Of a DNA stretch of 13,932 bases, positions 1,137 through 13,932 are shown one piece after another. The notes under the pieces were generated by a model. It was not told the origin of the DNA. It saw nothing but the letters and a program-made list of their open reading frames with translations, and did not search any database. Position 1 is the stretch's first letter; each line of letters begins with the position of its first letter. Position numbers and translations under genes: made by a program. This stretch comes from Oribacterium sp. (lineage in GTDB: Bacteria; Bacillota_A; Clostridia; Lachnospirales; Lachnospiraceae): NCBI GenBank assembly GCA_017940955.1, contig JAGAXP010000122.1, positions 1 to 13,932 of the forward strand, given 5' to 3'.

Positions 1137-2015
1137 TCATGTTACCGCTACATATCCTGCCGGCGCGGTCTCCCTATTCCCAGAACCAGGCTCCTCCTGC
1201 TTTGAATCAAAGCCAGCACTGTGATCCGGATCATCATCGGCTTCATCATTCAATCCAAAATCCACATTTTCACTATGCCCATAGATTGCATCTTCAACAA
1301 GCCTTACAGACGGAGAGCAAGGCATTCCGGTGGCATTCTTTTGTGACTTGTTCCTTGTCGGAACATCCACTTTCTCGTAACTGCTCAAAGATCCGATGTC
1401 AATCGTCCTGCTATACTGATCTACAGGCAGTCCGAAGGTATTTTCAGCATCCAAAGGAGAGAAGGGAATCATGGACTCCCTTCTTTCTCTCTTGTCCTCT
1501 TCCGCTATCGCCTCAGGAGTCATCGTCTTCTTACGTTCTTCCTTTTCTTCCTTCGTGCGCTTTCGGCGTTCTTTGAATTTTTCATAACGTTCGAGCTCAA
1601 ACACATACAGAGTATCGCCCTCATAGCTGATTCTATGCCCAAGAACCTTATATCTGCATCCTTCGGTCCATTCCATCAGCTCATAGATGCCCTTTGAGAA
1701 CTCTCCCTTGATGTTCCTGCTCTTTCTTTTATCCGCCTTCGCAACACACCATCTGACAGATTCCATATCGTTTTCTTCACATTTACGGATCACTATGCGC
1801 TTTTCATCATCGCTCACCATAATGTTGATATAAACAGCATCTTCAAGCCCTTCTATGCAGGCAGTATTAAAAGTAATGCTGTCTTTCTTTATTGTGATTG
1901 CAGGTTCCCGCAGATGGGCGAACATCTCCCTTCTGACAATCTGATAGCCGTCATAACTGAAATTCTTTTCAATTTCTGCCGCCCTTTCGTCATAGGACTC
2001 GATGTAACCCTGCAT
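1137..2015 (-). CDS. Recombinase-associated domain protein with charged tail
   Basis: A 292-residue protein without an assigned activity. Residues 20-143 match the C-terminal domain of the adjacent recombinase almost motif for motif: GYQIVRREMF against GYRIVRSCYF, FNTACIEGLEDAVYI against FSTYCLKKFEDVEYV, IVIRKCE against IAVRPCE, VRWC against IRWG, and a closing RYKVLG...YVFEL against GYKLFG...IVFEL. Residues 145-180 are a highly charged Lys/Glu/Arg stretch, probably helical, and the last third is acidic and probably disordered. Its ATG overlaps the recombinase stop codon by one base (TAATG) with GAGGTG upstream, so the two are translated together. No catalytic motif is visible. A role as accessory or directionality factor for the recombinase is plausible but unproven. 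Confidence 0.75.
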   Translation of the reverse strand: MQGYIESYDERAAEIEKNFSYDGYQIVRREMFAHLREPAITIKKDSITFNTACIEGLEDAVYINIMVSDDEKRIVIRKCEENDMESVRWCVAKADKRKSRNIKGEFSKGIYELMEWTEGCRYKVLGHRISYEGDTLYVFELERYEKFKERRKRTKEEKEERKKTMTPEAIAEEDKRERRESMIPFSPLDAENTFGLPVDQYSRTIDIGSLSSYEKVDVPTRNKSQKNATGMPCSPSVRLVEDAIYGHSENVDFGLNDEADDDPDHSAGFDSKQEEPGSGNRETAPAGYVAVT

Positions 2016-3925
2016 TAATCCACCTCTCCGTTCTGATTCTTAAAATTGGCAGACTCCTCTGCCTGGTTCTTTAACTTTTCCCATAATTCCATGGCGCCAT
2101 CCCTGACCTGCTGCATCGTAGCTTCTGAAATATTACCACTCATGCGATAAAACGAGGCCGGTGACATAATCATCCAATCCCCGTCATACTTCTTTGCCTT
2201 CAGGCTGATGACATTCCATGATCCGTTCTTCCCGACACGATCTCCAAATATCCCCGGAAGAATAACCTTTTTGGTCATTTTCACTTTCTTTTTAGCAGCA
2301 ACAGTTTCCCCGGCAGCATTTTGGTCGGTCGCATCACACGTATCCTGCTGCTCTGTATTCTGCTCATATTCAATAACCGCAGGATCCGATAACTCAAAAA
2401 CAATAAGCCTCTCTCCATCATTTTCAAGGTACTGCCCGAACAGCTTGTAACCACAGTCAGCACTCCAGGACATGATGTGACATAATGGAGAAATAAATCC
2501 CGAACAGCTTTTAGGCTGCACTATCCATCTGCTGTCTTTCAGCCTTCCCCATCGTATCGCATTCGGGCTGTCTTTTTCGCAAGGCCTTACCGCAATGCAC
2601 TTTTCCACTGAATTAAACAGAAGTTCTACATATTCCACATCCTCAAACTTTTTAAGGCAGTATGTGCTGAAACGCACCTGCCCCCTGGAAATGCTCATAG
2701 TAGGCTTCTGAGTTGATGAAAAGTAACAGCTTCTTACAATCCTGTAGCCTTCCGGAAGTCGTCCATCATTATTTCCTTCATCTTCTTCCGGCTCACATAG
2801 ATCGCTGATACTTTTACTTGCATCAATATAATCCTCCACCGTGAATCCTTTCCAAAGGAGGTTCACGGGGACAAAGCCCTTAAGGACTCCTTCTTCAACG
2901 ACTTCCAGTGCCGGCATCGGTATGGATTTCTTCATATTTTTCTCAGCCGCCATCTTACTCTGGGCTGCATCGAATATTTCATGGCTCACGATAGCCTCAT
3001 GGTGATCCACTTTCAGCACCTGTGGCATATCCTGATTGTTTTTTCTCTTCTTGTGCTCCCAAAAATCATAGGTAAAGGTCTTCCAGCTTAATACGTTACC
3101 GCAGTGCCTTTCATTCTGCATCACGGCACGCACCGTACTGTCATACCACCGGGTATTGCCAAGCTTTGTCTTTCGCTTTAGCTGTGTCAGTATTTCCGCA
3201 ATCTCTGATATAGGAAATCCAGATAGGTAAAGGTAGTATATGAGCTTCACGGTCTGGGATTCCTCCTCATTGATGACAAGGTTCCCGTCTTCATCATGAT
3301 CATAACCAAGCAGCACAGGAGTTAGGAATCGCCCCTTTTCAAAGCGTTTTTCTAATGACCATATCATGGCATTGCTCTTTGTTTTTGACTCTTCCTGGGC
3401 GGCTGCCGCCATGACAGCCAGGATCATCTCTGAAGTCGAGTCCAGCGTGTTTATCCCTTCTGTCTCAAATTTGACGGCAACAGGCGGATTCAAAGTCGCG
3501 AGATGCCTTGCCACGGTCAGGCAGTCCACAACATTTCTTGCAAACCTTGATACGGACTTCGTTACAATGACATCTATTTTCCCCGCTTCGCAGTCAGCGA
3601 TCAGACGGTTAAAATTATCCCTGTGTTTCATTGAAGTGGCACTTATACCCTCATCAGCATAAATGCCCGCGAATACCCACTCCGGGTTCTTGTTTATCTC
3701 TTCCTCATAATGTTCTTTCTGAAGCTCATAAGATGTGGTCTGGGCGGGATCGTCCGTGCTGACGCGGCAATATGCCGCTGTCCTTTTCTTTGGCGTATCC
3801 TCAGTAACAGGAAGGCTTTTTTTCGCAGGAATATAGATCAGGTCCTCCGATGACAGCTTCCTCATGTCCTCTTTGATTCTGTCTCTTTGCTCTTTACGGG
3901 TAACCGTCTTTCCTGCTGTTTCCAT
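2015..3925 (-). CDS. Large serine recombinase with atypical C-terminal domain
   Basis: A 636-residue site-specific recombinase of the resolvase/invertase superfamily. The catalytic N-terminal domain carries YCRVSTDD (nucleophile Ser near residue 56) and SRFAR (126-130). A Recombinase domain follows (about 200-330). The usual zinc ribbon is missing: no CxxC is seen where one is expected. Instead there is a KGFVPVNLLWKGFTVEDY linker and, at about 393-516, the domain shared with the two downstream genes, then a C-terminal basic/aromatic stretch. An ATG at 3961 is possible, but GGAGG with a 9-nt spacer favours ATG 3925, which begins 1 nt after the ATPase stop. Its position in the operon ties it to the ATPase and the two domain-sharing proteins. 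Active-site residues are complete, so it should be active. Its target site is unknown. Confidence 0.85.
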   Translation of the reverse strand: METAGKTVTRKEQRDRIKEDMRKLSSEDLIYIPAKKSLPVTEDTPKKRTAAYCRVSTDDPAQTTSYELQKEHYEEEINKNPEWVFAGIYADEGISATSMKHRDNFNRLIADCEAGKIDVIVTKSVSRFARNVVDCLTVARHLATLNPPVAVKFETEGINTLDSTSEMILAVMAAAAQEESKTKSNAMIWSLEKRFEKGRFLTPVLLGYDHDEDGNLVINEEESQTVKLIYYLYLSGFPISEIAEILTQLKRKTKLGNTRWYDSTVRAVMQNERHCGNVLSWKTFTYDFWEHKKRKNNQDMPQVLKVDHHEAIVSHEIFDAAQSKMAAEKNMKKSIPMPALEVVEEGVLKGFVPVNLLWKGFTVEDYIDASKSISDLCEPEEDEGNNDGRLPEGYRIVRSCYFSSTQKPTMSISRGQVRFSTYCLKKFEDVEYVELLFNSVEKCIAVRPCEKDSPNAIRWGRLKDSRWIVQPKSCSGFISPLCHIMSWSADCGYKLFGQYLENDGERLIVFELSDPAVIEYEQNTEQQDTCDATDQNAAGETVAAKKKVKMTKKVILPGIFGDRVGKNGSWNVISLKAKKYDGDWMIMSPASFYRMSGNISEATMQQVRDGAMELWEKLKNQAEESANFKNQNGEVD

Positions 3926-3926
3926 A

Positions 3927-4922
3927 TCAGTCTGCCTCCATTCCTTCTGGTTTTCCTTCATCCGGAAGCATCCAATGCCACCTTCCGCCTTTCCTGTAAG
4001 CCCGGATGTTCATCTCTTTTCCTGCGTTTCTGGCAGTCTTTTCACTTATCCCGATCATTTTCACCCTTAAAATGATATCCTTCGTCGGAACTCCGCCGAG
4101 CGACAGGATCGTCCTAAGGCATTCCTTCACCAGATCCTGCTTCCTCCTTCCGGGATCAGACTGCTCTACCCCCGTAAATGTCGGGCAGCATGGACCTATC
4201 CAGTGAAAAACGCCTTTTCCGTCAATATAGAACGCCATTGCATCCCCTTCTGGAGCCAGGTTTGACTTTATCTGACACATATACCGTATGCCCGGAACTC
4301 TCTCGTTTCTCTTAACCATAAGGACGCTTCTCGCAATAGCAGCAATATCTATGCTTCCAAGTCCCCTGTAAAGATTTTTCCCGCCCCGAGATTTATTCAT
4401 ATGTCCGATCAGGATCACTGCACATCCATACTTCTGTGCCACAGAAGCAAGATTTCGCATGATTCCCCGCATATAGGCCGCGCTCTGCATATCCCCGTCC
4501 GATGGGATAAACGCCTGTATGGGATCAAGGATGACGAGCCTTGCCCCGCTCATCCTTATGGATTCCTCGATTTCCCTGTCCTCAAGAGTCAGATTCCTGT
4601 CCTCTTCCGTAATGAAATATACCCTGTCAAGATCAGCACCTGCCGCTTTCAGCCTTGAAAGAACCGTATCCTCAGGATCGTCTTCCGCGCATTGGTAAAT
4701 TACATTTTCAGGCTTTTTTCTTTCTTCGCTTAAAGGAAATGCTTCTCCCTTTGTCATCATCGCAGCTATCTGGATGGCAAGGGTGGACTTTCCCTCGCCG
4801 GGATCTCCCTGCAGGATCGTAAGCTTCCCGTAACTCAAATATGGATACCAAAGCCATTCCACCTGCTTCTCCTTAACAGCGGCATATGGCATGTATGGTC
4901 TATCGTGATTTTCCGGATCCAT
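3927..4922 (-). CDS. RepA-like AAA/RecA-fold ATPase
   Basis: A 331-residue P-loop ATPase of the RSF1010 RepA / DnaB-like hexameric helicase type (AAA_25). The Walker A motif GDPGEGKST is at 39-47, Walker B LVILDP at 129-134, and the sensor-like GHMNKSRGGKNLYRGLGS at 173-190. The last 75 residues (TKDIILRVKMIGISEKTARN and following) look like a winged-helix DNA-binding tail. The family supplies replicative helicases of mobilizable plasmids, and related ATPases are common in integrative elements. The start is well placed, with AAGGAG and a 7-nt spacer. It overlaps the upstream XRE gene by 23 nt and ends 1 nt before the recombinase. With the iteron-like array about 500 bp upstream, a role in element replication is a reasonable inference, but no primase or Rep initiator is visible here. 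Confidence 0.85.
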   Translation of the reverse strand: MDPENHDRPYMPYAAVKEKQVEWLWYPYLSYGKLTILQGDPGEGKSTLAIQIAAMMTKGEAFPLSEERKKPENVIYQCAEDDPEDTVLSRLKAAGADLDRVYFITEEDRNLTLEDREIEESIRMSGARLVILDPIQAFIPSDGDMQSAAYMRGIMRNLASVAQKYGCAVILIGHMNKSRGGKNLYRGLGSIDIAAIARSVLMVKRNERVPGIRYMCQIKSNLAPEGDAMAFYIDGKGVFHWIGPCCPTFTGVEQSDPGRRKQDLVKECLRTILSLGGVPTKDIILRVKMIGISEKTARNAGKEMNIRAYRKGGRWHWMLPDEGKPEGMEAD

Positions 4923-5226
4923 TACCCTTCTCCTTCATAACCTTAACGAGTGCCGTTACAGCCATGATTTCCCTGTTTGACAGCCCCGTGACATCAATGT
5001 ACCTGTCATCCTCCTGGTGGTTTCCCGTAATACCCAAAATATAGTCCGTGCTCACTCCATAGATCTCGGCAAGCCTCGCTATTATGTCCGAAGGCGGCAC
5101 CCTGGTGCCTGTTTCATACTGGCTAAGGGCATGCCTTTCAACCCCAAGCATGGAGGCGACATCCTCCTGCCGGTACTCCGTAAGATGGCGGAGCTGCTTA
5201 AGGCGACTTCCTATAGACTCCTCCAT
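4900..5226 (-). CDS. XRE-family transcriptional regulator
   Basis: A 108-residue protein with an N-terminal Cro/CI-type helix-turn-helix at about residues 8-62 (SRLKQLRHL, then EDVASMLGVERHALSQYETG). The remaining ~45 residues (SNREIMAVTALVKVMKEKG) probably form a dimerization helix. A GAGGGAG ribosome binding site lies 4 nt before the ATG. It is the first gene of module 1 and its end overlaps the ATPase start. It most likely regulates its own operon through the palindromes directly upstream; that is inference from position. Confidence 0.9.
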   Translation of the reverse strand: MEESIGSRLKQLRHLTEYRQEDVASMLGVERHALSQYETGTRVPPSDIIARLAEIYGVSTDYILGITGNHQEDDRYIDVTGLSNREIMAVTALVKVMKEKGNGSGKSR

Positions 5227-5430: not shown

Positions 5431-5504
5431 CAAGATGGCAAAAGACCTGAAGCATTGCCATCTTAGAAATGTTTTTGCCATCTTGAGGGCATTTTAGCCA
5501 TCTT
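5431..5504. repeat. Iteron-like array of GCCATCTT motifs
   Basis: GCCATCTT starts at 5457, 5477 and 5497, exactly 20 bp apart. An inverted copy (AAGATGGC) is at 5432-5439. The inverted copy and the second direct copy extend to a perfect 13-bp inverted repeat, CAAGATGGCAAAA (5431-5443) with TTTTGCCATCTTG (5473-5485). A GCATT/GTTTT-type AT-rich lead precedes the direct copies. Helically phased direct repeats are typical of initiator or regulator arrays. RSF1010-type origins, which use a RepA-class helicase, are known to carry 20-bp iterons, so an origin role is worth considering. Confidence 0.6.
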
Positions 5505-5544
5505 AAGCCTCTGAAGTTGTCCCTGATTTTACATGTTAGCATAG

Positions 5545-5566
5545 TATGGTGGGATTTTCCACCATA
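5545..5566. promoter_or_regulatory. Palindromic operator at the small xre promoter
   Basis: A perfect inverted repeat, TATGGTGG-GATTTT-CCACCATA. Its right edge reaches the -35 position for the TATAAT at 5588-5593. A related 22-bp element (18 of 22 identical) stands before the recombinase operon at 12587-12608. The likeliest ligand is the small XRE protein encoded immediately downstream. Confidence 0.65.
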
Positions 5567-5593
5567 TTTGAAAAAGCGACAATCCCATATAAT
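5565..5593 (+). promoter_or_regulatory. Promoter of the small xre gene
   Basis: A perfect -10 TATAAT (5588-5593) stands 34 nt before the TTG start. With a 17-nt spacer the -35 would be TATTTG, a poor match; a better hexamer, TTGAAA (5568-5573), is only 14 nt away. The poor -35 next to the palindrome suggests regulation by a protein bound there, by repression or by class II-type activation. Confidence 0.5.
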
Positions 5594-5627
5594 TGGAAGA
5601 AGATTCACGTGCATGGAGGTGACTAAT

Positions 5628-5831
5628 TTGATTGATTACAGCCCTCTGTGGGAAACGATGAAGCAGCGAAGCATTTCACAGTATGATCTCATTAACATGG
5701 GAGTTGACAAGCACACCATGGACAGTCTCCGAAATAACCGCAGCATTACGATGTTGACATTGGAAAAACTGTGCATCCTTCTGGAATGTGGACCTGACGG
5801 AATCGTTGCTTTTCCCCAACCCAAAGAATAA
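5628..5831 (+). CDS. Small XRE-family regulator
   Basis: A 67-residue protein that is essentially a single helix-turn-helix domain of the short Cro/CI-like type found in Firmicute mobile elements. Visible hallmarks are the N-terminal YSPLWETMKQRSISQYDL, the recognition region GVDKHTMDSLRNN, and TLEKLCILLECGPDGIV. The start is taken as TTG 5628 because GGAGGTGA (5615-5622) lies 5 nt before it and the protein then begins IDYSPLW, as usual for this family. The ATG at 5613 sits just before the ribosome binding site and is unlikely. It is transcribed toward module 2 and ends at a terminator. A palindrome at its own promoter recurs upstream of the recombinase operon, so it probably controls both. 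Confidence 0.85.
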   Translation: MIDYSPLWETMKQRSISQYDLINMGVDKHTMDSLRNNRSITMLTLEKLCILLECGPDGIVAFPQPKE

Positions 5832-5870
5832 CGCCCCTTTCAAGTATCCCTACCTGAAAGAGGCGTTTTT
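5830..5870 (+). terminator. Terminator between convergent xre and recombinase genes
   Basis: ACGCCCCTTTCA (5831-5842) pairs with TGAAAGAGGCGT (5855-5866) with a single mismatch, followed by a run of T to 5871. On the opposite strand the stem is followed by TTATTCTTT, so it may also terminate the recombinase operon, whose stop codon is at 5888. Confidence 0.85.
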
Positions 5871-5887
5871 TATGTCTTATTCACTTC

Positions 5888-7555
5888 TTATGCTTTATCT
5901 TTCTGATGCTTCAATACAAAACCGTCCATTTCCGGCTTATATCCGTATCTTCTCGCCGCTTCACTGATCAGATCTGTAAACCGGAATACGATCTCCACGT
6001 TCTTATTTTCGTGGATATACACGTTGTCGATAAACACCGCCACCATGGTGTCCGTAAGTGTTGTCTCTCCCATCAGCTTTTCCGCTTCCGAAAGTAGTGC
6101 CTTTAATTCTGCAGGTCTTGCCTGTTTCAATCCTTTTTCTTCGCCTTCTACACGGCTTCCGTCTTTTTCCAGCTTCTCCGTAAGCTCCCTGATCTTGTTA
6201 TCTGTCTCGAATTTTCTGATCTTATACTCTTCAACAGTCATCTTCCCGTCAACATATTCCTCATAAAACCGGATCTTATCCGTTTTCAGGCGCTGAATGT
6301 CCGTATCTATACGGCTCCTGTCTTTATCCAGCTCTTTTTTCAGATCTTTGATTTCCTTTTCTTTTTCCGAGAACCTTCCATTTATCTTAAGCAAAAGCTC
6401 TATCTGTTTTTTGATTGCGAGATATACAACAGACTCGATATCCCCAAGAGAATAAAAGTTTGCACTGCAGCCGGAGTGCTTTGGCTGTGTCATGGCAGAA
6501 CGGCAGTAACATTTTGGATTGGCCTCTTTAAGGTTTACTGAAAGGGTCCTCCTGCAATGTCCGCACCTGAGTTTTTTCCTTAGCGGCATTTTGCCCGCTT
6601 TCCTCGGTCCGCGTCCCCTTTCCGTCCGTATCACCTGATGTGCCTTCTCCCATTCTTCCTTCGTGACTATGGCCTCATGGCAGCCTTCTACTACTATCCG
6701 CTGGCTTTTTGGCACGACCCTCTGCACATAGGATCCTGATACAATAATCTCGCACTTGTGCCTTACCATCGCTCCGGTATATTCATAAAAATTCAGGACT
6801 CTCCATACTTTTCCACTGTCCCATATTTTTTCCGGAGTGAGAACCCGCTGGTTCATCTTGCCCTTGTATTTCTTTATTCTGGCGTATTCTGACGGGATGG
6901 GCAGCTTCTCATCATTAAGCTGCTCCGCAATTTGTCCCGTGCTAAACCCAAGGAGCGCAAGATCATACACTCTCCTCACGATCTTTGCCGCGTCCGGATC
7001 AAGTTTGTACGTGTTCGGTCTGTCCGGATCAAAAACATATCCGAACAGGGCATATCCACCCGTACAGCGTCCCTGCTTCCACTTTACCCTGTTTGCAGAT
7101 TTAAGTTTCTTCCCGACATCACGGCTGTAAAGTGTATTCACCAGGTTTGCCACAGCTATGTCAAGCCCCATAGCCGTGCCTTTGTAATTAACACTGTCAT
7201 ATGTATTGTTTATGGCTATGAACCTGACACCAAGCACCGGGAATATCTTCTCAAGGTATTCCCCCACCGCAACATAATCTCTTCCGAAACGGGACAGGTC
7301 TTTCACGACCACGGTGTCTATTTCCCCGCATTTAATATCAAGCATCATTTTCTTGAATCCCGGACGGTCAAAGTTGAGCCCTGTAAATCCGTCATCCGTG
7401 TATTCCCTGTAGGGCAGACTCTTAAGGTCATCCCTTGACAGCAGGTACTCCTGTATCAGCATTCCCTGATTCTCTATGCTGTTGCTTTCATCCTTCCCAT
7501 CCTTTCCCAGGTCTCCGTCCGCAATGGACAGCCTCTTATAAACCGCTATCATCAT
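5888..7555 (-). CDS. Large serine recombinase (fourth gene of the recombinase operon)
   Basis: A 555-residue recombinase. The catalytic domain begins at once (MMIAVYKRLS) with Tyr6, Arg8 and Ser10 at the same numbers as in classical resolvases, then GFTG (56-59), DRPGF (63-67) and KDLSRFGRD (85-93, Arg89 and Arg92). A Recombinase domain follows, then a zinc ribbon (CGHC, later CYC and a Cys near SGCSANFY), then a long Lys/Glu-rich coiled coil (KEKEIKDLKKELDKD). The reading frame extends upstream to 7663, but AAGGTG just before ATG 7555/7552 marks the start. It overlaps the preceding recombinase gene by 20 nt. All active-site residues are present. It should act in integration, excision or both; its att sites are not identifiable from this window. 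Confidence 0.88.
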   Translation of the reverse strand: MMIAVYKRLSIADGDLGKDGKDESNSIENQGMLIQEYLLSRDDLKSLPYREYTDDGFTGLNFDRPGFKKMMLDIKCGEIDTVVVKDLSRFGRDYVAVGEYLEKIFPVLGVRFIAINNTYDSVNYKGTAMGLDIAVANLVNTLYSRDVGKKLKSANRVKWKQGRCTGGYALFGYVFDPDRPNTYKLDPDAAKIVRRVYDLALLGFSTGQIAEQLNDEKLPIPSEYARIKKYKGKMNQRVLTPEKIWDSGKVWRVLNFYEYTGAMVRHKCEIIVSGSYVQRVVPKSQRIVVEGCHEAIVTKEEWEKAHQVIRTERGRGPRKAGKMPLRKKLRCGHCRRTLSVNLKEANPKCYCRSAMTQPKHSGCSANFYSLGDIESVVYLAIKKQIELLLKINGRFSEKEKEIKDLKKELDKDRSRIDTDIQRLKTDKIRFYEEYVDGKMTVEEYKIRKFETDNKIRELTEKLEKDGSRVEGEEKGLKQARPAELKALLSEAEKLMGETTLTDTMVAVFIDNVYIHENKNVEIVFRFTDLISEAARRYGYKPEMDGFVLKHQKDKA

Positions 7556-9281
7556 GATCACCTTCTTCCGCAAAAGGATTCTTAAAGCGGAACGTAATAT
7601 GGACATGCTTGTCCGTGAAAACATCAACCCGCTCCACAAGCTCTCTGACCTTGTCCTCGTCAAATGCTGTCATGCCCGCAAATTGCTTCATCTTTTCTGC
7701 CGACTGAAAGTATTCCTTTGAGATTTCTTCCGTTTTTTTGAGTTTTTCTTCAAGCGTTTTAAGCGCCTCTTCCTCTTCTTCATGCTGCTTTTTGTAGATA
7801 TCCTGCAAAAGCCTGAACTCCTCCTTATCAATTATGCCTGCGGACAGGTTTTCATAAAGGAGTGTCCGTTTTTCCGCAATGCTTCCTAATCGGGCATTAG
7901 CCTTTTGAATCTCAGATTTTATTTTGTTTGTGGGACTTCCGCTCCCATTCAGATTATTGGTCTTCTTCCAGAGCTCTTCTTCATCACAAAACGCAAGGAC
8001 AGCTTCACTGATCTTTCTCATGATAAGCATCTTAAGAAGGTTCTCCGTTATTGTATGACCCTGGCATTCCGCCTGCCCCTTTCTGTGTCTGCAACAGTAT
8101 ACGACAGTCTTTACACTGCTCTCAGCACCATGCGGATACCTGTCTATACACATGCGTCTCCCGCATTCCCCGCAATATAACAGTCCCTTTAGCTGGTCAG
8201 GGTACTTCTCATTGATCTTGGCGGCAGCGCTCCTGCGTTCCATCCTGACAGCCGCTTCACGTTCCTGCTTTTCACGGATCTTTTCAAAATCATCCCTAGC
8301 TATGATCGGCGCATGGGTGTTTTCCGTGATTATCCACTCCTCCTTTTCCGTGCGCCTCTTTTCCTGCCCGGCAAATATTTTGGCGGAGGTTTTATTTGTC
8401 ACCGTGTTGCCGATATAGCATTCGTTCATAAGAATTGCTGACACGCTTGATGACTCCCATTTTTTACCAGCGTCCTTCTTCAGTATTCCCAGTTCCTTCT
8501 GCCTCTGTCTCGGCGTCGGCGCTCCCATCAGGTTAAGGTTATCTGCGATTCTGTTAGTAGAAAGCCCCATAAGCCTCCACTGAAAGATCATCTGTACTGT
8601 CGGGGCTGTTGCCGGATCAATATCAAATCTACCGGTCTCCTGATTCAGGATATATCCGTAAACACATCCGTTCCCCAAAACCACCCCGGCCTTTTTCTTT
8701 CGCTGTGCCGTAGTCCATATCTTCTTGGACAAATCTTTTGAGTACATCGTATTTACGAGGTTCTTAACCGGAATCAGCAGGCTGTTCATATCCTCCGGTC
8801 GAAGAGAATCAAAATTATCGGTGACCGCCAGGAGTCTTGCTCCAAGAAACGGCAGGATGGTTTCGATATAATAATCTGCTTCGAGATAGTTTCTCCCAAA
8901 GCGCGAAAGATCCTTTACGACTATGCACTGTATCTTTCCCTTCCGCAGGTCCTGCATCATCCTGTTGAACGCAGGACGGTTAAAATTCGTTCCGCTATAA
9001 CCATTGTCAAAATATGTTTCCTCATAAACAATGTCATCCCTGCAGTCAATGAAATCACGTATCAGTTTGATCTGAGTGTCCAGAGAATCCATCGTGATAT
9101 CGTCTTCTACGGAAAGCCTTGCATAAACCGCTGCCTTCATGGCATTCTTCTTTTGGGCTGTCACAGGTTGAGCTGCAGGCACATTTTCTGAATGCTCCTC
9201 TAAAACTTCAATCGTTAGTTCATTTTGTCCTGCCCTCTCAAAGGTATCGGTCTGTATATTTTTTCTGCTCTTTCTTGCCAA
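7536..9281 (-). CDS. Large serine recombinase (third gene of the recombinase operon)
   Basis: A 581-residue recombinase with a ~45-residue basic/acidic N-terminal extension before the catalytic domain. AAVYARLSVEDD puts the nucleophile Ser at about 57; GYSGTNFNRPAF and KDLSRFGRN (catalytic Arg near 127 and 130) follow. The Recombinase domain, a zinc ribbon (CGECG with later CCRH and C) and an extended coiled coil (HEEEEEALKTLEEKLKK) come next. An in-frame GTG at 9314 has no ribosome binding site. TTG 9281 lies 9 nt after a GGAGG embedded in the end of the previous gene and just 2 nt after that gene's TAA, so TTG is preferred. Translation is probably coupled to the preceding catalytically dead recombinase. 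Active site complete. Confidence 0.87.
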   Translation of the reverse strand: MARKSRKNIQTDTFERAGQNELTIEVLEEHSENVPAAQPVTAQKKNAMKAAVYARLSVEDDITMDSLDTQIKLIRDFIDCRDDIVYEETYFDNGYSGTNFNRPAFNRMMQDLRKGKIQCIVVKDLSRFGRNYLEADYYIETILPFLGARLLAVTDNFDSLRPEDMNSLLIPVKNLVNTMYSKDLSKKIWTTAQRKKKAGVVLGNGCVYGYILNQETGRFDIDPATAPTVQMIFQWRLMGLSTNRIADNLNLMGAPTPRQRQKELGILKKDAGKKWESSSVSAILMNECYIGNTVTNKTSAKIFAGQEKRRTEKEEWIITENTHAPIIARDDFEKIREKQEREAAVRMERRSAAAKINEKYPDQLKGLLYCGECGRRMCIDRYPHGAESSVKTVVYCCRHRKGQAECQGHTITENLLKMLIMRKISEAVLAFCDEEELWKKTNNLNGSGSPTNKIKSEIQKANARLGSIAEKRTLLYENLSAGIIDKEEFRLLQDIYKKQHEEEEEALKTLEEKLKKTEEISKEYFQSAEKMKQFAGMTAFDEDKVRELVERVDVFTDKHVHITFRFKNPFAEEGDHDDSGL

Positions 9282-9283
9282 CT

Positions 9284-10813
9284 TTATCTGCCTCCTTCCA
9301 GATATCTCTTCCACTCAGGTTTTGAAAACTGCACGCTCATGGAAAAGTCATTTCCTTCCCTGTTGTATGGACGGTTCATAATAAGCTCTATCCTGTCTGT
9401 TACCTTTTCGATAAATACGTGGTCTGCTTCATCGGGAACAAGTAATTTACTGAAAAGCATCAGCCACGGATTCCTTACACTAAATGCAGTTTTAATATCC
9501 TTTACCTTTTCAGCGGTCTCATTGTAAAAGTCTGTCTCGTCTTTCATCCTCTTTTGAAAATCCTCAAGCCGTTTTTCATATTCCTCAGCGGAAATCATTC
9601 CGGCTTTATAGCTGTCATAAAGAGGAAGCCGGTCTGACATGCTTACCTTAAGTTCCGCAACAGCCCTCTTGAATCGTGCCGAGACACGATCCAGTTCTTC
9701 ATCGCACTTTTTTTCATAAGCACCCGCCTGCATCTCCTTCATCAGAAGCTGCGCCTGCTCTTTTTCTTTATGGAGCATTTGCCTGAATCGGCTGTATACT
9801 TCCTCTTCCGGGATTGTCCATCTGTCGAGGTCTCCGCCTCCCCAGCACCCGGCGCCGCATCTGTATCCTGTCACGCCTGTATCTTCTCTTGTCGTAAGGG
9901 ATAATGACCTTCCACACCTTGAGCAGAAAAGCTTCCCATGATATGGTCTTATGGCATACGGCTTTCTTTTTACTTTTCCATCCTCCCCTCTCGGGGCATA
10001 TACATATTTTGCAAGTTTAATTGTCCTGAACCTGTCAATGGAGATATAAGGCTCATGGCAATCCTCAGCCAGCACCTCTGACTTATTGTTGATAACGGCA
10101 CCGGTATAAACAGGGCTTCTGATTATGCGTTTCACTTTATCATCATCCCAATACTCCATATCCTTCGGGAGCTCTTTCCCAAACATCTTTAGGCGGTGTA
10201 TTTTGGGACAGTCTACATGATGAAAATTCAGCCATCCGGCAATATCATGGAATGACTTTCCTTCAAAATACTGTCTGAACATCTCATCCACGATTTCTGA
10301 AATGCTCTCGTCCTTTGCCAGATTGTTCCCTTCCGGAGACCTTTTATATCCGAATGGGATGGAATTGCTAATCACATAGGAATCGCCCTTCTCGGAAAGG
10401 AAGTTACGGAAGATTTCGCCATGTTCTTCGTTTCCCTTTGCCTCAAAGTAACGGATAACATCCAGGCGCTCGGTCTTAGAAGAATCGAATTTGTCATCGA
10501 CCACCACAAAATGTATCCCGCCTTCATACATGGTATCCAGAATATGATGCCTGGCCGATTTCATGTCGTGGCCAAAGTAGGAAAAATCCTTGACCACGAT
10601 ACAGTCAAATTTTCCTTCCATGGCGTCCTTGATCATTTCAAGGAATCCGCTCTCCGCCATGACATCAACCTTTTTGTCGATGTATTTTTTCTGAAGGTTA
10701 ATGTCCCCGTTCTCCTTGAGCCAGGAAGCAATAACATCATTCTGTTTTGAAATGGAGCATTCTATGTTCTTCCTGCTCCACGATACTGCCTTCGTATAAC
10801 TCACATATCTCAT
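9284..10813 (-). CDS. Catalytically degenerate large serine recombinase (second gene of the operon)
   Basis: A 509-residue protein that keeps the recombinase layout but has lost the active site. Against the neighbours' YxRxS, it reads Tyr6-x-Lys8-x-Val10 (MRYVSYTKAVSW), so Val replaces the nucleophile, with a Ser only next door at 11. The catalytic KDLSRFGRD is KDFSYFGHD here, with Tyr79 and His82 in place of both Arg residues. GYTG is also lost. The Recombinase domain (IPFGYK, then the VYTGAVINNKSEVLAEDCHEP region), the zinc ribbon (CSRCG, CGAGC) and the coiled coil are intact, and the frame has no stops. It overlaps the previous gene by ATGA (10810-10813) with AAGGAGG upstream. Intact length and coupled translation argue for a kept non-catalytic role, such as a DNA-binding or hetero-oligomer subunit; that is inference. 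Confidence 0.85.
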   Translation of the reverse strand: MRYVSYTKAVSWSRKNIECSISKQNDVIASWLKENGDINLQKKYIDKKVDVMAESGFLEMIKDAMEGKFDCIVVKDFSYFGHDMKSARHHILDTMYEGGIHFVVVDDKFDSSKTERLDVIRYFEAKGNEEHGEIFRNFLSEKGDSYVISNSIPFGYKRSPEGNNLAKDESISEIVDEMFRQYFEGKSFHDIAGWLNFHHVDCPKIHRLKMFGKELPKDMEYWDDDKVKRIIRSPVYTGAVINNKSEVLAEDCHEPYISIDRFRTIKLAKYVYAPRGEDGKVKRKPYAIRPYHGKLFCSRCGRSLSLTTREDTGVTGYRCGAGCWGGGDLDRWTIPEEEVYSRFRQMLHKEKEQAQLLMKEMQAGAYEKKCDEELDRVSARFKRAVAELKVSMSDRLPLYDSYKAGMISAEEYEKRLEDFQKRMKDETDFYNETAEKVKDIKTAFSVRNPWLMLFSKLLVPDEADHVFIEKVTDRIELIMNRPYNREGNDFSMSVQFSKPEWKRYLEGGR

Positions 10814-12459
10814 AAAGCTGCTGCCTCCTTCATATTTTCATCATCTGTTCCAACCGCATCACTCAGTTTCTCAAACTCATCCGAGAACCTGTAACGGATC
10901 TTAATGTGTTCCTTGTCATAGACAGTTATACATTCAACAAGTTCCACAAGAAGACGCCTTGTAAGTTTTTTGATTCCCTTGTACTTTTTTATGTCCCTTA
11001 CCCAGCCGATATCCTCAACATTTACTTTTTTAAGCTCCTCCATGTTTTTCTGTATCGACTCCTTGGCTTTCTGTGCATTTTCGATATGGGATTCAAAATT
11101 TCGGCTGAACTCTTCATACTCTTCCTTCGTAACGACATGATCTGCCATATCCCGGTAGAGCTGGGCGCGTAGTTCTGTATATTTATTGATCTCTGCCTGC
11201 AGCATCTCCTGCTGTTCCAAAAGCCTTTTGCTTAAAATCGTTTCCCTCGGCTCCTGTGAGATCTGTGACAGCTTTTCCTCAAGGTCTTCCACCTGTCCGA
11301 TCTTTTCATTGATTGAACTGATCACCGCACTGCGGAGTTTATCCTCATTGATGAGATGAGAGGTGCATCCGTTTCCTTTATGGTAAGTCCCGCAGTTCAG
11401 ATAAAAATATTTCCTTCCATTCTTAGTCGTCACTCTTCTTGTCATGGTCTGTCCACAGTCACAGCATCTGACGATTCCAGAAAAAAGGTTCACCTGCTCC
11501 TCTCCGGGAGATGCACAGGTATCAAGTTGCAGTGTCTCCTGCACCAAGTCAAAAACTTTTTTGGGGATGATGGCCTTATGTACGTTCTCTGCCCGGATCC
11601 ATTCTTCTTCAGGTCTCTCCACTATCTTTTTTACCTTGTAGTTGACCCTCGACCTTTTTCCCTGGATGAGGCTTCCTATGTATACCTCGTTCTTTAATAT
11701 CCTGAAAACCTGTATTGCCTGCCATTTCGGATTTCCCGTGCTCTTAAATCCGCTGTGATAATCAATGCCGCAAATCCTCTTATAACTGCTGGGACAAGGA
11801 ACACCGTTCTCATTCAGTTTTTCAGCTATCCTCTGTGCGCTACAGCCGTCCAGCTTCCAGTTAAAGATATCCTTCACGATACCGGCGGCGTATTCATCAA
11901 TTTCGAGCCTTCCTTTGGTTTCTTCGGATTTCTTATATCCGAACGGAGCATAGTTTCCAACAAATGCCCCATTCTTCCTTTTCACGTCCAGCTGGCTTCT
12001 CACCTTTATGGAAATATCCCTGCAATAGGAATCGTTCAAAAGGTTCTTGAAAGGAATGATGAAAGAATCCGATTCGCTGTTTTCTGATGCGCTGTCATAA
12101 TGGTCATTGATAGCAATGAACCTGATTCCGATTGTCGGGAAAACCCGCTCAAGGAATTTTCCGACTCCGATGTGGTCCCTTCCGAATCTGGAAAGGTCCT
12201 TTACGATGACGCCGTTGATCTTTCCTTCTTCAATATCCCCGATCATCTTCTTAAATCCGGGGCGGTCAAAGTTGGTTCCCGTGTAGCCATCATCGACATA
12301 CTCTTCTACGATATGGATTTCCGGATGATTCTCCGTATAAGATTTGACCAGCAGACGCTGGTTCGAGATACTGTTGCTCTCCACCTTGTCCCCGTCCTCA
12401 ATGGACAGACGAAGGTAGGAAGCAAACTTTTCTGATGTTCTTAGATTACTTTTGAGCAT
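10810..12459 (-). CDS. Large serine recombinase (first gene of the operon)
   Basis: A 549-residue recombinase with a full active site: SYLRLSIEDG (Tyr15, Arg17, Ser19), GYTG, FDRPGF and KDLSRFGRD (Arg91, Arg94). The Recombinase domain (NYAPFGYK to VYIGSLIQGK), a zinc ribbon (CCDCG, then NCGTYHKGNGC) and a coiled coil (SKRLLEQQEMLQAEINKY) follow. The open frame extends to 12582, but AGGAGGT about 10 nt before ATG 12459 fixes the start, and the promoter at 12542-12570 lies between the two. Its TGA overlaps the next gene's ATG (ATGA). With an active site and first position in the operon, it is the best candidate for the main integrase, though the other two intact recombinases cannot be ranked by sequence alone. 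Confidence 0.88.
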   Translation of the reverse strand: MLKSNLRTSEKFASYLRLSIEDGDKVESNSISNQRLLVKSYTENHPEIHIVEEYVDDGYTGTNFDRPGFKKMIGDIEEGKINGVIVKDLSRFGRDHIGVGKFLERVFPTIGIRFIAINDHYDSASENSESDSFIIPFKNLLNDSYCRDISIKVRSQLDVKRKNGAFVGNYAPFGYKKSEETKGRLEIDEYAAGIVKDIFNWKLDGCSAQRIAEKLNENGVPCPSSYKRICGIDYHSGFKSTGNPKWQAIQVFRILKNEVYIGSLIQGKRSRVNYKVKKIVERPEEEWIRAENVHKAIIPKKVFDLVQETLQLDTCASPGEEQVNLFSGIVRCCDCGQTMTRRVTTKNGRKYFYLNCGTYHKGNGCTSHLINEDKLRSAVISSINEKIGQVEDLEEKLSQISQEPRETILSKRLLEQQEMLQAEINKYTELRAQLYRDMADHVVTKEEYEEFSRNFESHIENAQKAKESIQKNMEELKKVNVEDIGWVRDIKKYKGIKKLTRRLLVELVECITVYDKEHIKIRYRFSDEFEKLSDAVGTDDENMKEAAAL

Positions 12460-12541
12460 AAAAACACTGACCTCCTCTTGCTGAATTGACAGCCAGAGAA
12501 AAGCCAGCGCCTTAAGAAAACTCTGTTTTCTACCCAAGGGC

Positions 12542-12570
12542 ATTGTAACAGTTGCCGGAACCAATTTCAA
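12542..12570 (-). promoter_or_regulatory. Promoter of the four-recombinase operon
   Basis: On the minus strand, TTGAAA (12565-12570) and TACAAT (12542-12547) are separated by exactly 17 nt, each five of six to consensus. The expected transcription start is about 75 nt before the ATG at 12459. The 22-bp palindrome sits 16 bp upstream of the -35, centred near -62, a position typical of class I activation rather than simple repression. Confidence 0.75.
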
Positions 12571-12586
12571 GTGGTCTGCCAAAATT

Positions 12587-12608
12587 TATGGTGTAATTTT
12601 TCACCACA
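12587..12608. promoter_or_regulatory. Second copy of the xre-type operator, upstream of the recombinase operon
   Basis: TATGGTG, a central AATTTTT and CACCA match the palindrome at 5545-5566 at 18 of 22 positions, with both half-site cores (GGTG and CACC) conserved at the same spacing. It overlaps the stop codon of the 72-residue gene and lies upstream of the recombinase promoter. Confidence 0.65.
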
Positions 12609-12819
12609 TCCAAAAAATTCCCATTGCCGACTTGAGACACTCCCACAGGGATCGGGAATTGTTTCCATATTCCTCCGTCACGTAAATCACTCCAGGCGCT
12701 TTTCCGGGTACTGTCTGATTGACAGGAATCTTCTCTTTTGACTCCGGATCATATTCTCTTGTTTTTCCATTCATCCCGGGTATGGACTCATGATCTTTCC
12801 TCGGATTTTTATCACTCAT
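12601..12819 (-). CDS. Small protein of unknown function upstream of the recombinases
   Basis: A 72-residue protein that I do not recognise. The N-terminal half is hydrophilic and charged (MSDKNPRKDHESIPGMNG); the C-terminal half ends in a Trp-rich, possibly membrane- or protein-facing tail (SLWECLKSAMGIFWMW). ATG 12819 is preceded by GGAGGG with a 9-nt spacer; the longer frame from 13002 reads through the oriT-like hairpins and is rejected. The gene is separated from the first recombinase by 141 nt containing a promoter, so it may be co-transcribed by readthrough or be a unit of its own. No clear promoter was found upstream of it. Its fixed place between oriT and the recombinases suggests a role in element biology. 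Confidence 0.6.
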   Translation of the reverse strand: MSDKNPRKDHESIPGMNGKTREYDPESKEKIPVNQTVPGKAPGVIYVTEEYGNNSRSLWECLKSAMGIFWMW

Positions 12820-12965
12820 GTTTTTAATCCCTCCACTTAACCTGCGTTTTTTCCTGTGGAAGTCAAGCCTTAAATCTGTTTTTTCAAGATCAGCTTGTCT
12901 TTGTGGGAGCAAAAAGCTGGATAAGTGAAGCAGCATATGTGGGTAGAGCAAGTTTCGCCTTGTCC

Positions 12966-13002
12966 GACAATAACCCCTTTCGGGACATTGTCTCCAAGAC
13001 AA
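12966..13002. repeat. Two mutually exclusive hairpins
   Basis: GACAAT (12966-12971) pairs with ATTGTC (12987-12992) around an inner CCC/GGG stem. TTGTCT (12988-12993) pairs with AGACAA (12997-13002) across a 3-nt loop. The two share 12988-12992 and cannot form together. This fits an oriT recognition repeat, or an attenuator-like switch in the mobC leader if transcription starts upstream. Confidence 0.45.
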
Positions 13003-13006
13003 CTTG

Positions 13007-13028
13007 TTAGGGTACTGCGTAACCCTAA
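13007..13028. repeat. Inverted repeat TTAGGGT-N8-ACCCTAA, probable relaxosome site
   Basis: A perfect 7-bp inverted repeat with loop ACTGCGTA, located 119 bp before mobC. Size, spacing and position match the repeat that flanks the nick site in many mobilizable elements. The exact assignment is inferred. Confidence 0.5.
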
Positions 13029-13146
13029 GACCTCGCTGGAGCGGATGCTAAAGCACCCATGCTCCGGTTCCATCTGCGATGAAACAGTCTCCTGCCCTGC
13101 GGGCATGAGGGGCTAACAGCAAATATACGAAAGAAGGGAGATTTTT

Positions 13147-13524
13147 ATGGGAAGACCAAAGAAAGAAATGCCGCCAAGCAAAGGCAGGAAATTTACCATC
13201 CGGCTGACTGATGTGATGTATGAGTCCTTGGAGCAGGACGCGATGAAAGCAGGGCTATCCGTATCCGAATATGCCAGGGAGCTTCTGCTTGACCATAAGC
13301 CGGTCGTTAAACAGGAGATAGTGTTTGATTCCGAAGAACTGCTGCATGTGCTTGGGGACATGGGAAAGATCGGGAGCAATTTGAACCAGATCGCTCATCA
13401 CTTAAACGGCGGAGGCGGATGGAGCGGCGAACTGAAAAATGAAGTGCTGCAGGGAGTAATCGCCATCTATAAGATCAGGGATATGGTCAGGGAAATGTCA
13501 GGAGAATACCGTGGCCGTCATTAA
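13147..13524 (+). CDS. mobC: MobC-type relaxosome accessory protein
   Basis: A 125-residue protein that assists the relaxase at oriT. The N-terminal part (GRPKKEMPPSKGRKFTIRLT) is a basic ribbon-helix-helix-like DNA-binding segment, followed by SVSEYARELLLDHKPV and the family hallmark IGSNLNQIAHHLN at about 75-90. A GAAGGGAG ribosome binding site precedes the ATG. Its last 14 nt overlap the GTG start of the relaxase gene, the standard arrangement for this pair. Confidence 0.88.
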   Translation: MGRPKKEMPPSKGRKFTIRLTDVMYESLEQDAMKAGLSVSEYARELLLDHKPVVKQEIVFDSEELLHVLGDMGKIGSNLNQIAHHLNGGGGWSGELKNEVLQGVIAIYKIRDMVREMSGEYRGRH

Positions 13525-13932
13525 ACATATCTCCATAAAGAACTCAAACTATGATGCAGCCGTTGACTACCTCACGCTGAAGCACGATGAGTTTACCAAT
13601 AAACCCATCCTCAATGAAAATGGGAATAAAATACCCCGTGACGAATTTCTGATCGAGGGCATAGGCTGTGACCCCTTCACTTTAGGAAGGGAGTGAGAAG
13701 CCACCAATGCCCTTTTCCACAAAAATCAGAATCGGGAAGATATCAAAGCCCACCATTACATCATCAGCTTCGACCCTCGGGACAGGGGCGAAAACGGACT
13801 GACCTCTGAACGGGCTCAGGCGCTTGCCATGAGTTTTGCCCGGAAGAATTTTCCCGGACATCAGATAATCGTCTGCACCCACCCGGACGGTCATAACTCC
13901 GCAGGCAACATCCATGTGCATATCGTTTTCAA
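13511..13932 (+). pseudogene. MOBP-type relaxase, 5' part, interrupted by one in-frame TGA
   Basis: The relaxase nicks oriT and leads the strand into the recipient. It starts at GTG 13511 with AGGAG 6-7 nt upstream and runs to the window edge. Residues 1-61 match the family N-terminus (MAVIKHISIKNSNYDAAVDYL, with a candidate catalytic Tyr in NYDAAVDYL). A TGA at 13694-13696 then interrupts GRE-stop-EATN, where relatives are expected to have Cys. The same frame stays open afterwards (HKNQNREDIKAHHYIISFDPRD) up to the metal-binding motif THPDGHNSAGNIHVH. Because there is no frameshift, this is one nonsense change, a sequencing error or readthrough. Genes here use TGA as an ordinary stop (ATPase, first recombinase, 72-residue protein), so a changed genetic code is unlikely. 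Confidence 0.8.

Follow-up and report, generated by a model that had tools for sequence, protein, structure and literature searches.

A large serine recombinase homologue without a catalytic site is maintained in an operon of canonical recombinases in Clostridia

Systems with several recombinases and homologues without catalysis

In serine recombinases, DNA is cleaved by Ser10 within a tetramer, and cleavage is followed by rotation. The large serine recombinases (LSRs) are usually treated as self-sufficient homo-oligomers which are accompanied by a small recombination directionality factor (RDF). Several LSR genes can nevertheless occur on one element: in streptococcal integrative elements (ICEs), serine integrase genes form triplets with an external, a middle and an internal member, and the accessible part of that study assigns a domain with the conserved serine to all 42 integrases (Ambroset et al. 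2016, PMC4701971). The DNA analysed here, a contig of 13,932 nt from Oribacterium sp. (JAGAXP010000122.1, hereafter the window), carries four tightly packed LSR-like genes, designated A, X, C and D. Like the streptococcal triplets, as far as these are described in the accessible text, A, C and D are canonical LSRs whose three genes share one orientation within an operon of a conjugative or mobilizable element and cluster by position; the difference is that a fourth, inactive LSR homologue, X, is located here between genes 1 and 2. It thus combines a 'serine integrase triplet' of the known type with a dedicated pseudo-recombinase.

The CcrA/CcrB pair of the SCC elements likewise represents more than one LSR per element and, according to the available sections of the source, is always found together as an operon; however, both gene products are credited there with the reaction (PMC5595907), whereas X has no active site. 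A contribution of subunits that do not cut is described for Tn3 resolvase in the accessible part of PMC9943657, where recombination is reported to be efficient when S10A domains are targeted to half-sites of site II or of site III, but not when they are targeted to site I. As proposed for X, the accessory-site subunits of this system require no catalytic serine and yet help to build the synapse. On the other hand, Tn3 resolvase is a small recombinase, the DNA-binding domains of which differ from those of X, and one protein does both jobs, while here a separate gene would take the non-catalytic one. Vaccinia F16L, like X, is a serine recombinase homologue and was named a 'predicted inactive serine recombinase', but it is a poxvirus protein said to target nucleoli, and the available text mentions no operon of active recombinases (PMC11980589). 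Some recombinase domains devoid of active-site residues have also been reported beside catalytic ones, with the suggestion that their function may have diverged; the example is an rve_3 domain within one protein, and the accessible part of the source describes neither an LSR module nor a conserved dead LSR subunit (PMC8989519). We found no earlier description of a conserved inactive LSR subunit in the open-access literature, subscription journals being mostly outside this coverage.

Operon layout, active site and predicted fold of X

The four genes are arranged in the order A-X-C-D on the minus strand (Table 1). The stop codon of A and the start codon of X overlap in the sequence ATGA, and C, with a TTG start, follows X after a gap of 2 nt. 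The earlier note, made from the window alone, had described X as translationally coupled on both sides; the 4-nt overlap with A agrees with this, but there is no overlap at the junction with C. If the conserved ATG is taken as the start of X, the A/X overlap is exactly 4 nt in 18 of 23 loci. The N-terminus of C is of the ARKSRKN type, which is common to many relatives of C.

Table 1. Position of the recombinase genes, active-site motifs and adjoining features (window coordinates unless a locus is named).
Feature	Position	Strand	Remarks
X, full-length dead LSR homologue, 509 aa	9284..10813	(-)	intact ORF, ATG start
X motif Y6-T7-K8-A9-V10 where YxRxS is expected	10784..10798	(-)	nucleophile Ser10 lost, Arg8 replaced by Lys
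X residues 50-57, DVMAESGF, shortened loop	10643..10666	(-)	Arg45 motif NFDRPGF in neighbours
X motif K75-D-F-S-Y79-F-G-H82 where KDLSRFGR is expected	10568..10591	(-)	Arg68 and Arg71 lost, Asp67 retained
A, canonical LSR, 549 aa	10810..12459	(-)	ATG 12459 likely start; frame open from TTG 12582
C, canonical LSR, 581 aa from TTG 9281	7536..9281	(-)	ORF open from GTG 9314
D, canonical LSR, 554 aa	5888..7552	(-)	17-nt overlap with C
Small ORF, 72 aa, immediately upstream of A	12601..12819	(-)	no Pfam match
NikA/MobC-like relaxosome protein adjoining the operon	13147..13524	(+)	
Y	L074:6000-7649	(+)	
Y	L075:6722-8491	(-)	
Y	L123:7736-8966		
Y, two genes	L171:718-2349 and 5646-7225		
Y	L172:4005-5636		
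LSR homologue next to Y	L123:6383-7732		recombinase and zinc-ribbon parts, no catalytic domain in ORF
LSR homologue next to Y	L172:2697-3968		recombinase and zinc-ribbon parts, no catalytic domain in ORF

The earlier note took X for a full-length serine recombinase with an intact frame and an erased active site, and both statements were borne out by comparison with the canonical neighbours. The ORF is uninterrupted over its 509 aa, and Y6-T-K8-A-V10 and K75-D-F-S-Y79-F-G-H82 of X correspond to the motifs YLRLS, YARLS or YKRLS and KDLSRFGR of A, C and D. In the alignment with these three proteins, and with residue numbers which we take to be those of gamma-delta/Tn3 resolvase, X has Val in place of Ser10, Lys in place of Arg8, Glu in place of Arg45, Tyr in place of Arg68 and His in place of Arg71, so that the serine and all four catalytic arginines are gone, while Tyr6, Asp36 and Asp67 are retained. 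The change at Arg45, which had been overlooked, affects a whole loop: NFDRPGF or NFNRPAF in the neighbours, it is shortened and reads VMAESGF in X.

Pfam assigned the Recombinase domain (PF07508) to X with an E-value of 1.9e-12, and the Resolvase domain (PF00239) weakly, at 2.7e-6. These results, the CxxC motif and the coiled coil of the structural model agree with the domain content that had been read from the sequence, except that the zinc ribbon PF13408 was not called in the window copy although CxxC is present. A CxxCG-type motif was found in nine of 23 X (the window copy and eight others) and is absent in the other 14, versus CxxC in all rows of A, C and D, for which a slightly looser pattern was used. 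The AlphaFold2 model of the window X (mean pLDDT 83.9) comprises a resolvase fold, helix E (residues 116-149), a recombinase domain and a coiled coil, and that of a clade-2 X (pLDDT 87.6) shows a resolvase fold, a long helix E, a recombinase domain and a coiled coil; the pTM values of the X models are low (0.42-0.44), and the models are read for domain content, with no claim about the arrangement. In Foldseek and VIA-align comparisons, the window model was closest in structure to serine recombinases and integrases, among them the TP901-1, PhiC31, Bxb1 and SPbeta integrases. The NCBIfam CcrB model scored 26.7 bits against X, with a cut-off of 900.

The C-terminus of the small ORF upstream of A resembles by eye that of an ORF of 53-56 aa located in the same place in loci L004, L006, L007, L008 and L001, and the same sequence pattern was not picked up in other loci tried. 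This ORF is a candidate RDF and, in that function, an alternative to X.

Several other features of the window and of related loci were recorded. A relaxase-like frame starting at the end of the NikA/MobC gene (13511-13696, plus strand) runs into an in-frame TGA at 13694-13696, which may reflect either an interruption or a wrong base call. A fifth serine recombinase (2015-3961, minus strand), in which YCRVS is present, Ser replaces Asp67 and the C-terminal part is unusual and long, adjoins genes of an AAA_25 ATPase (3927-4922) and an XRE regulator (4900-5226), and the ORFs at 1137-2015 and 739-1140 apparently have, judged by eye, a domain in common with its C-terminus. Megablast returned no match for positions 5500-13900 against plasmids or for the whole window against phages. 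BLASTN among L004, L006, L007 and L008 did not identify an att core; conservation ends about 400-1800 bp beyond D, and inside D in L008, and the genes past the conserved part differ. In serine integrase triplet modules, the ends of the element are marked by very short direct repeats (2-8 bp). In L004, HTH and AAA_25-like genes to the right of D resemble the window genes to the left of D, and the AAA gene runs by eye into a phage tape-measure-like reading frame, a possible element junction. In the complete Faecalibacterium chromosome L008, D is truncated at about 85 residues (11202-11516) where the homology to L007 ends, which is possibly a recombination junction inside D.

Distribution, conservation and selection of the X family

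Relatives of X with identities of 22-99% were found in Faecalibacterium, Lachnospiraceae and other Clostridia, which include gut bacteria. A protein search with X yielded three relatives at identities of 68-99% and a further seven at 22-24%; the four of these seven that were inspected are canonical recombinases. Profile searches detected X in assemblies of Faecalibacterium, Lachnospiraceae and other Clostridia (L005-L014), in contigs of viral collections and in further genomes; a phage-collection contig from human faeces (L001) has the same gene order, and its X, 31% identical, is equally dead. Altogether 33 copies were collected, a few of them near-identical, and 31 are uninterrupted, the exceptions being L014, in which X is split, and L017 with one in-frame TGA. 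X stands behind A in every locus whose upstream DNA is present, and almost all loci in which both flanks are available have it between A and C. Some quartets are incomplete: L070 has A-X without recognisable C-D, L015 has only a fragment of C, and D is truncated in L008. The active genes are interrupted as well: besides the truncated D of L008, A is split in L013 and D in L010.

A protein search with a clade-2 profile, in which 7996 candidates were scored, gave 95 proteins among the matches listed, the first 52 of which form the X group by score (E-values up to 9.7e-88, the next being 3.9e-31); 50 of these have a readable N-terminus. Four of the 52 clusters are identical to locus copies, which leaves 77 different X sequences, some of them close variants. 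As profile E-values below about 1e-60 do not separate X from ordinary LSRs, classification was by motif and position. In this way 20, 30 and 12 loci, mostly canonical LSRs, were inspected in three surveys of genomes: X was recognised in at least three of 297 genomes of one family and in at least three of 397 genomes of another, the seed genome included in both, a second dead family, Y (see below), in at least two of the latter, and among 391 genomes of the class X was recognised only in the seed, all of these counts being lower bounds, since only returned loci were inspected and 3-5 candidates scored per genome. Where a name is given in the annotation, X is a 'recombinase family protein', a 'DNA invertase Pin-like site-specific DNA recombinase' or a 'hypothetical protein'.

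In a common alignment, Ser10 is absent from 31 of 31 X and five of five Y, while the set of Tyr6, Arg8, Ser10, Asp36, Arg45, Asp67, Arg68 and Arg71 is complete in all 75 active rows. By gene, canonical sites were found in 18/18 A, 19/19 C and 15/15 D, broken or cut neighbours being left out: A of L009, L010, L011, L013 and L017 (contig-cut, split, or with an ORF starting within the gene), D of L001 (cut), L008 (truncated) and L010 (split), as well as the interrupted X of L014 and L017. The near-copies L001, L004, L008 and L014 were omitted from some tree or conservation runs. The 50 further clusters with a readable N-terminus have no Ser10 either, so that it is missing from every one of the 77 different X sequences, and the search for relatives with a normal active site that the earlier note had called for returned none (0/31 and 0/50).

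The replacing residues vary. Residue 10 is V, I, T, L, M, A, Y or K in the 31 loci, and V (22), T (10), I (8), L (3), M (3), A (2) or F (2) in the 50 clusters, in which residues 10 and 11 were counted from Tyr6. Arg8 is R or K in 30/31 X, Asp36 is retained in 30/31, and Asp67 is replaced by Ser in 27/31 X and 51/52 clusters. Arg68 is R in nine and Y in 14 of the 31, Arg71 is R in five, and Arg45 is aligned in three of the 31 and in none of the 52 clusters; R45, R68 and R71 do not occur together in any of the 31. The particular residues Val10, Tyr79 and His82, the fixation of which had been raised, are thus not fixed, His at the Arg71 position being confined to the window copy (1/31). Outside the X family, an otherwise canonical LSR with YMRLA (L036:1393-3054, plus strand) has Ala for Ser10, which looks like an isolated loss, unlike X.

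Selection was estimated by the Nei-Gojobori method for Faecalibacterium-type pairs at dS 0.2-1.2, the window copy not being among them. Pairwise dN/dS was 0.08-0.20 for X, compared to 0.02-0.15 for A, 0.07-0.13 for C and 0.05-0.08 for D; three clade-2 pairs of X gave 0.12-0.19 at dS 1.4-2.3, and pairs with L005, being saturated, yielded no ratio. The pooled value for X, 0.110 over ten pairs, comprises 0.109 for the N-terminal domain, 0.035 for helix E, 0.077 for the recombinase domain and 0.146 for the C-terminal half. Between distant loci, X diverges faster than its neighbours, with N-terminal identities of 0.40-0.44 versus 0.64-0.66; the identity of the C-terminal half is 0.21-0.31 in X and is also low, 0.26-0.36, in C and D. 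Relaxed constraint on helix E, which might be suspected from its identity of 0.23 between loci, was rejected, since this helix has the lowest omega in the close set (0.035); helix E of X is co-diverging, not relaxed.

X has also gained residues of its own. V4, S5, T7, N25, K43, K48, V104 and Y122, and further G64 (Ala in the window), E350, S445, N448 and W501, are among the residues that at least 85% of 23 X have in common and that are rare in 56 active rows. Next to Asp36, the active rows mostly have Glu at position 43, against Lys in 27/31 X; at position 47, most of them have Asp or Asn, and 26/31 X have Arg or Lys; the counterpart of K48 in the active rows depends on the alignment, being Gly in one and Thr/Ser in another. 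A C-terminal N[PQSL]W motif is present in 24/25 X and 2/2 Y, in 0/52 A, C and D, and in two of 12 other rows, both of them C-like neighbours of Y genes. On these sequence comparisons, X is an old family under purifying selection with conserved residues of its own, and not a recent casualty. The view of X as a decaying gene being lost, already doubted in the earlier note, is the weakest of the alternatives and can be set aside: two of 33 copies are interrupted and X diverges faster than its three neighbours, but interruptions strike active genes too, and a pooled dN/dS of about 0.11, 31 uninterrupted copies, gained conserved residues, a deep clade of its own and the lack of Ser10 in all 77 sequences point to a selected non-catalytic homologue kept among active recombinase genes.

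The second dead LSR family, Y, has YxRR[K/I/R]F for YxRxS, with no Ser10, and Ser for Asp67. Y genes occur beside C-like ones, in arrays made up of several LSR genes. In quick IQ-TREE runs with SH-aLRT support, X and Y fall on one side of a branch with a support of 99, and of 82 after more rows were added; the grouping of Y with its own C-like neighbours was rejected by the AU test (p 0.001). X and Y possibly share an origin, although their grouping may come from long branches, and one origin is therefore not established.

In the trees, the copies of each of the four genes fall into a clade of their own, and the two subclades within it match between the genes. The distance correlations of X are 0.92 with A (15 loci), 0.95 with C (15) and 0.90 with D (12), and those between active genes are 0.97 for A-C (9 loci), 0.89 for A-D (8) and 0.88 for C-D (13). 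As all four genes correlate about equally, no partner of X is singled out, and co-inheritance of neighbours explains correlated trees with no contact required.

Among the best 80 of 587 A-type loci obtained from a viral collection with an A profile, A is followed by X in nine, 61 have three consecutive canonical genes, and seven have two canonical genes, the third not being seen; the remaining loci are L132 (two, then an ORF without the motif), L139 (split A) and L098 (next gene off the contig). The presence of 61 plain triplets versus nine loci with X in this set argues that X was added to a triplet and is not its dead member. In a tree with the triplets fetched here, the streptococcal ones not being included, A and D of the quartets group with genes 1 and 3, respectively, whereas C does not group with gene 2; this topology gives a hint that C may have changed together with the arrival of X. 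Extra recombinase ORFs without a readable N-terminal motif were noticed behind the triplet in 11 of the 61 loci, one of which is L123; L117, L129, L135, L144, L146, L148, L159, L163 and others have recombinase ORFs without a readable YxRxS start there.

Possible role of X

We propose, with a probability of about 0.6, that X is a dedicated non-catalytic subunit, or pseudo-recombinase, of a four-gene module A-X-C-D in mobilizable elements of Clostridia. Its likeliest role would be that of an architectural or regulatory subunit in a mixed recombinase complex. X would be co-translated with A, would assemble with A and/or C (and D) through the N-terminal domain and helix E, and would place its recombinase and C-terminal domains on DNA. 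Strand breakage and rejoining in such a mixed complex would be left to A, C and D, with X making no cuts. In the manner of accessory-site subunits in Tn3-type resolvases, or of a built-in directionality factor, X could give the synapse a form in which recombination is confined to the right pair of sites or to the right direction. The fixed position of the gene, the translational overlap with A and the co-diverging trees are indirect indications of a partnership of X with its neighbours. It is doubtful that clade-2 X binds DNA specifically, because CxxC is found in only nine of 23 X and the C-terminal half is poorly conserved. More tentatively, at somewhat less than even odds, the labour could be split genetically, with catalysis by A, C and D, control of synapsis or directionality by X (and by Y in related multi-recombinase elements), and integration carried out by an obligate four-protein hetero-oligomer.

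The main alternative, at a clearly lower probability, is that X itself serves as the RDF: derived from an integrase, it would bind the integrase complex and turn the reaction towards excision. An RDF is needed for attL x attR recombination, but not for attP x attB. Most known RDFs are small proteins without resemblance to integrases, which counts against this assignment, as does the small ORF upstream of A, an alternative candidate. The matches of the X model do include integrase-RDF complexes of SPbeta (9dxd, 9dxf) and PhiC31 (9tep), and a protein tied to recombinases and selected though inactive would fit such a function; however, the plain triplets, 61 of the best 80 loci, must excise somehow without X. 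The accessible parts of PMC9943657 and PMC5595907 state that serine integrases require an extra protein for excision; the former describes the RDF as a small phage-encoded protein, and according to the latter CcrA/CcrB require no RDF.

It is rather unlikely that X is a DNA-binding regulator, which would dampen recombination either by repressing the operon or by contesting the att sites with A, C and D, and would enter no joint synaptic complex. The predicted fold still includes the DNA-binding domains, the active site would be dispensable for such a protein, and co-transcription would permit autoregulation. However, the former catalytic domain is the best conserved part of X (identity 0.44 versus 0.22-0.31 for the DNA-binding half) and carries X-specific residues, 14 of 23 X have no CxxC, and a pure repressor needs neither a resolvase domain nor helix E.

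Still more improbable is an active X in which the nucleophile is Ser11, one residue further on (YTRxVS). Ser is found at position 11 in 22/31 loci and 43/50 clusters, one alignment placed Ser11 in the Ser10 column, and a subset of clade 2 retains R68 and R71. However, residue 11 is Pro in 9/31 loci and A, P, G or T in 7/50 clusters, Arg45 and Asp67 are lost in nearly all copies, as reported above, and the window copy is without all four arginines. Faecalibacterium-type X, with L, I or M at position 10 and Pro at position 11, has no candidate nucleophile there, and since these Pro11 copies are among those in which purifying selection was measured, a shifted nucleophile is not what selection keeps in them. 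For clade 2 itself, a Ser11 nucleophile appears unlikely from the pattern of retained residues.

If the proposal of a dedicated non-catalytic subunit is true, a conserved dead LSR would offer a natural and genetically separable handle on the role of subunits that do not cut, directionality and site choice would be testable by deleting one gene, and X would represent a natural regulator for genome-engineering integrases. Moreover, if X and Y share one origin, a design in which the labour is split between cutting and non-cutting homologues would have been stable for a long time.
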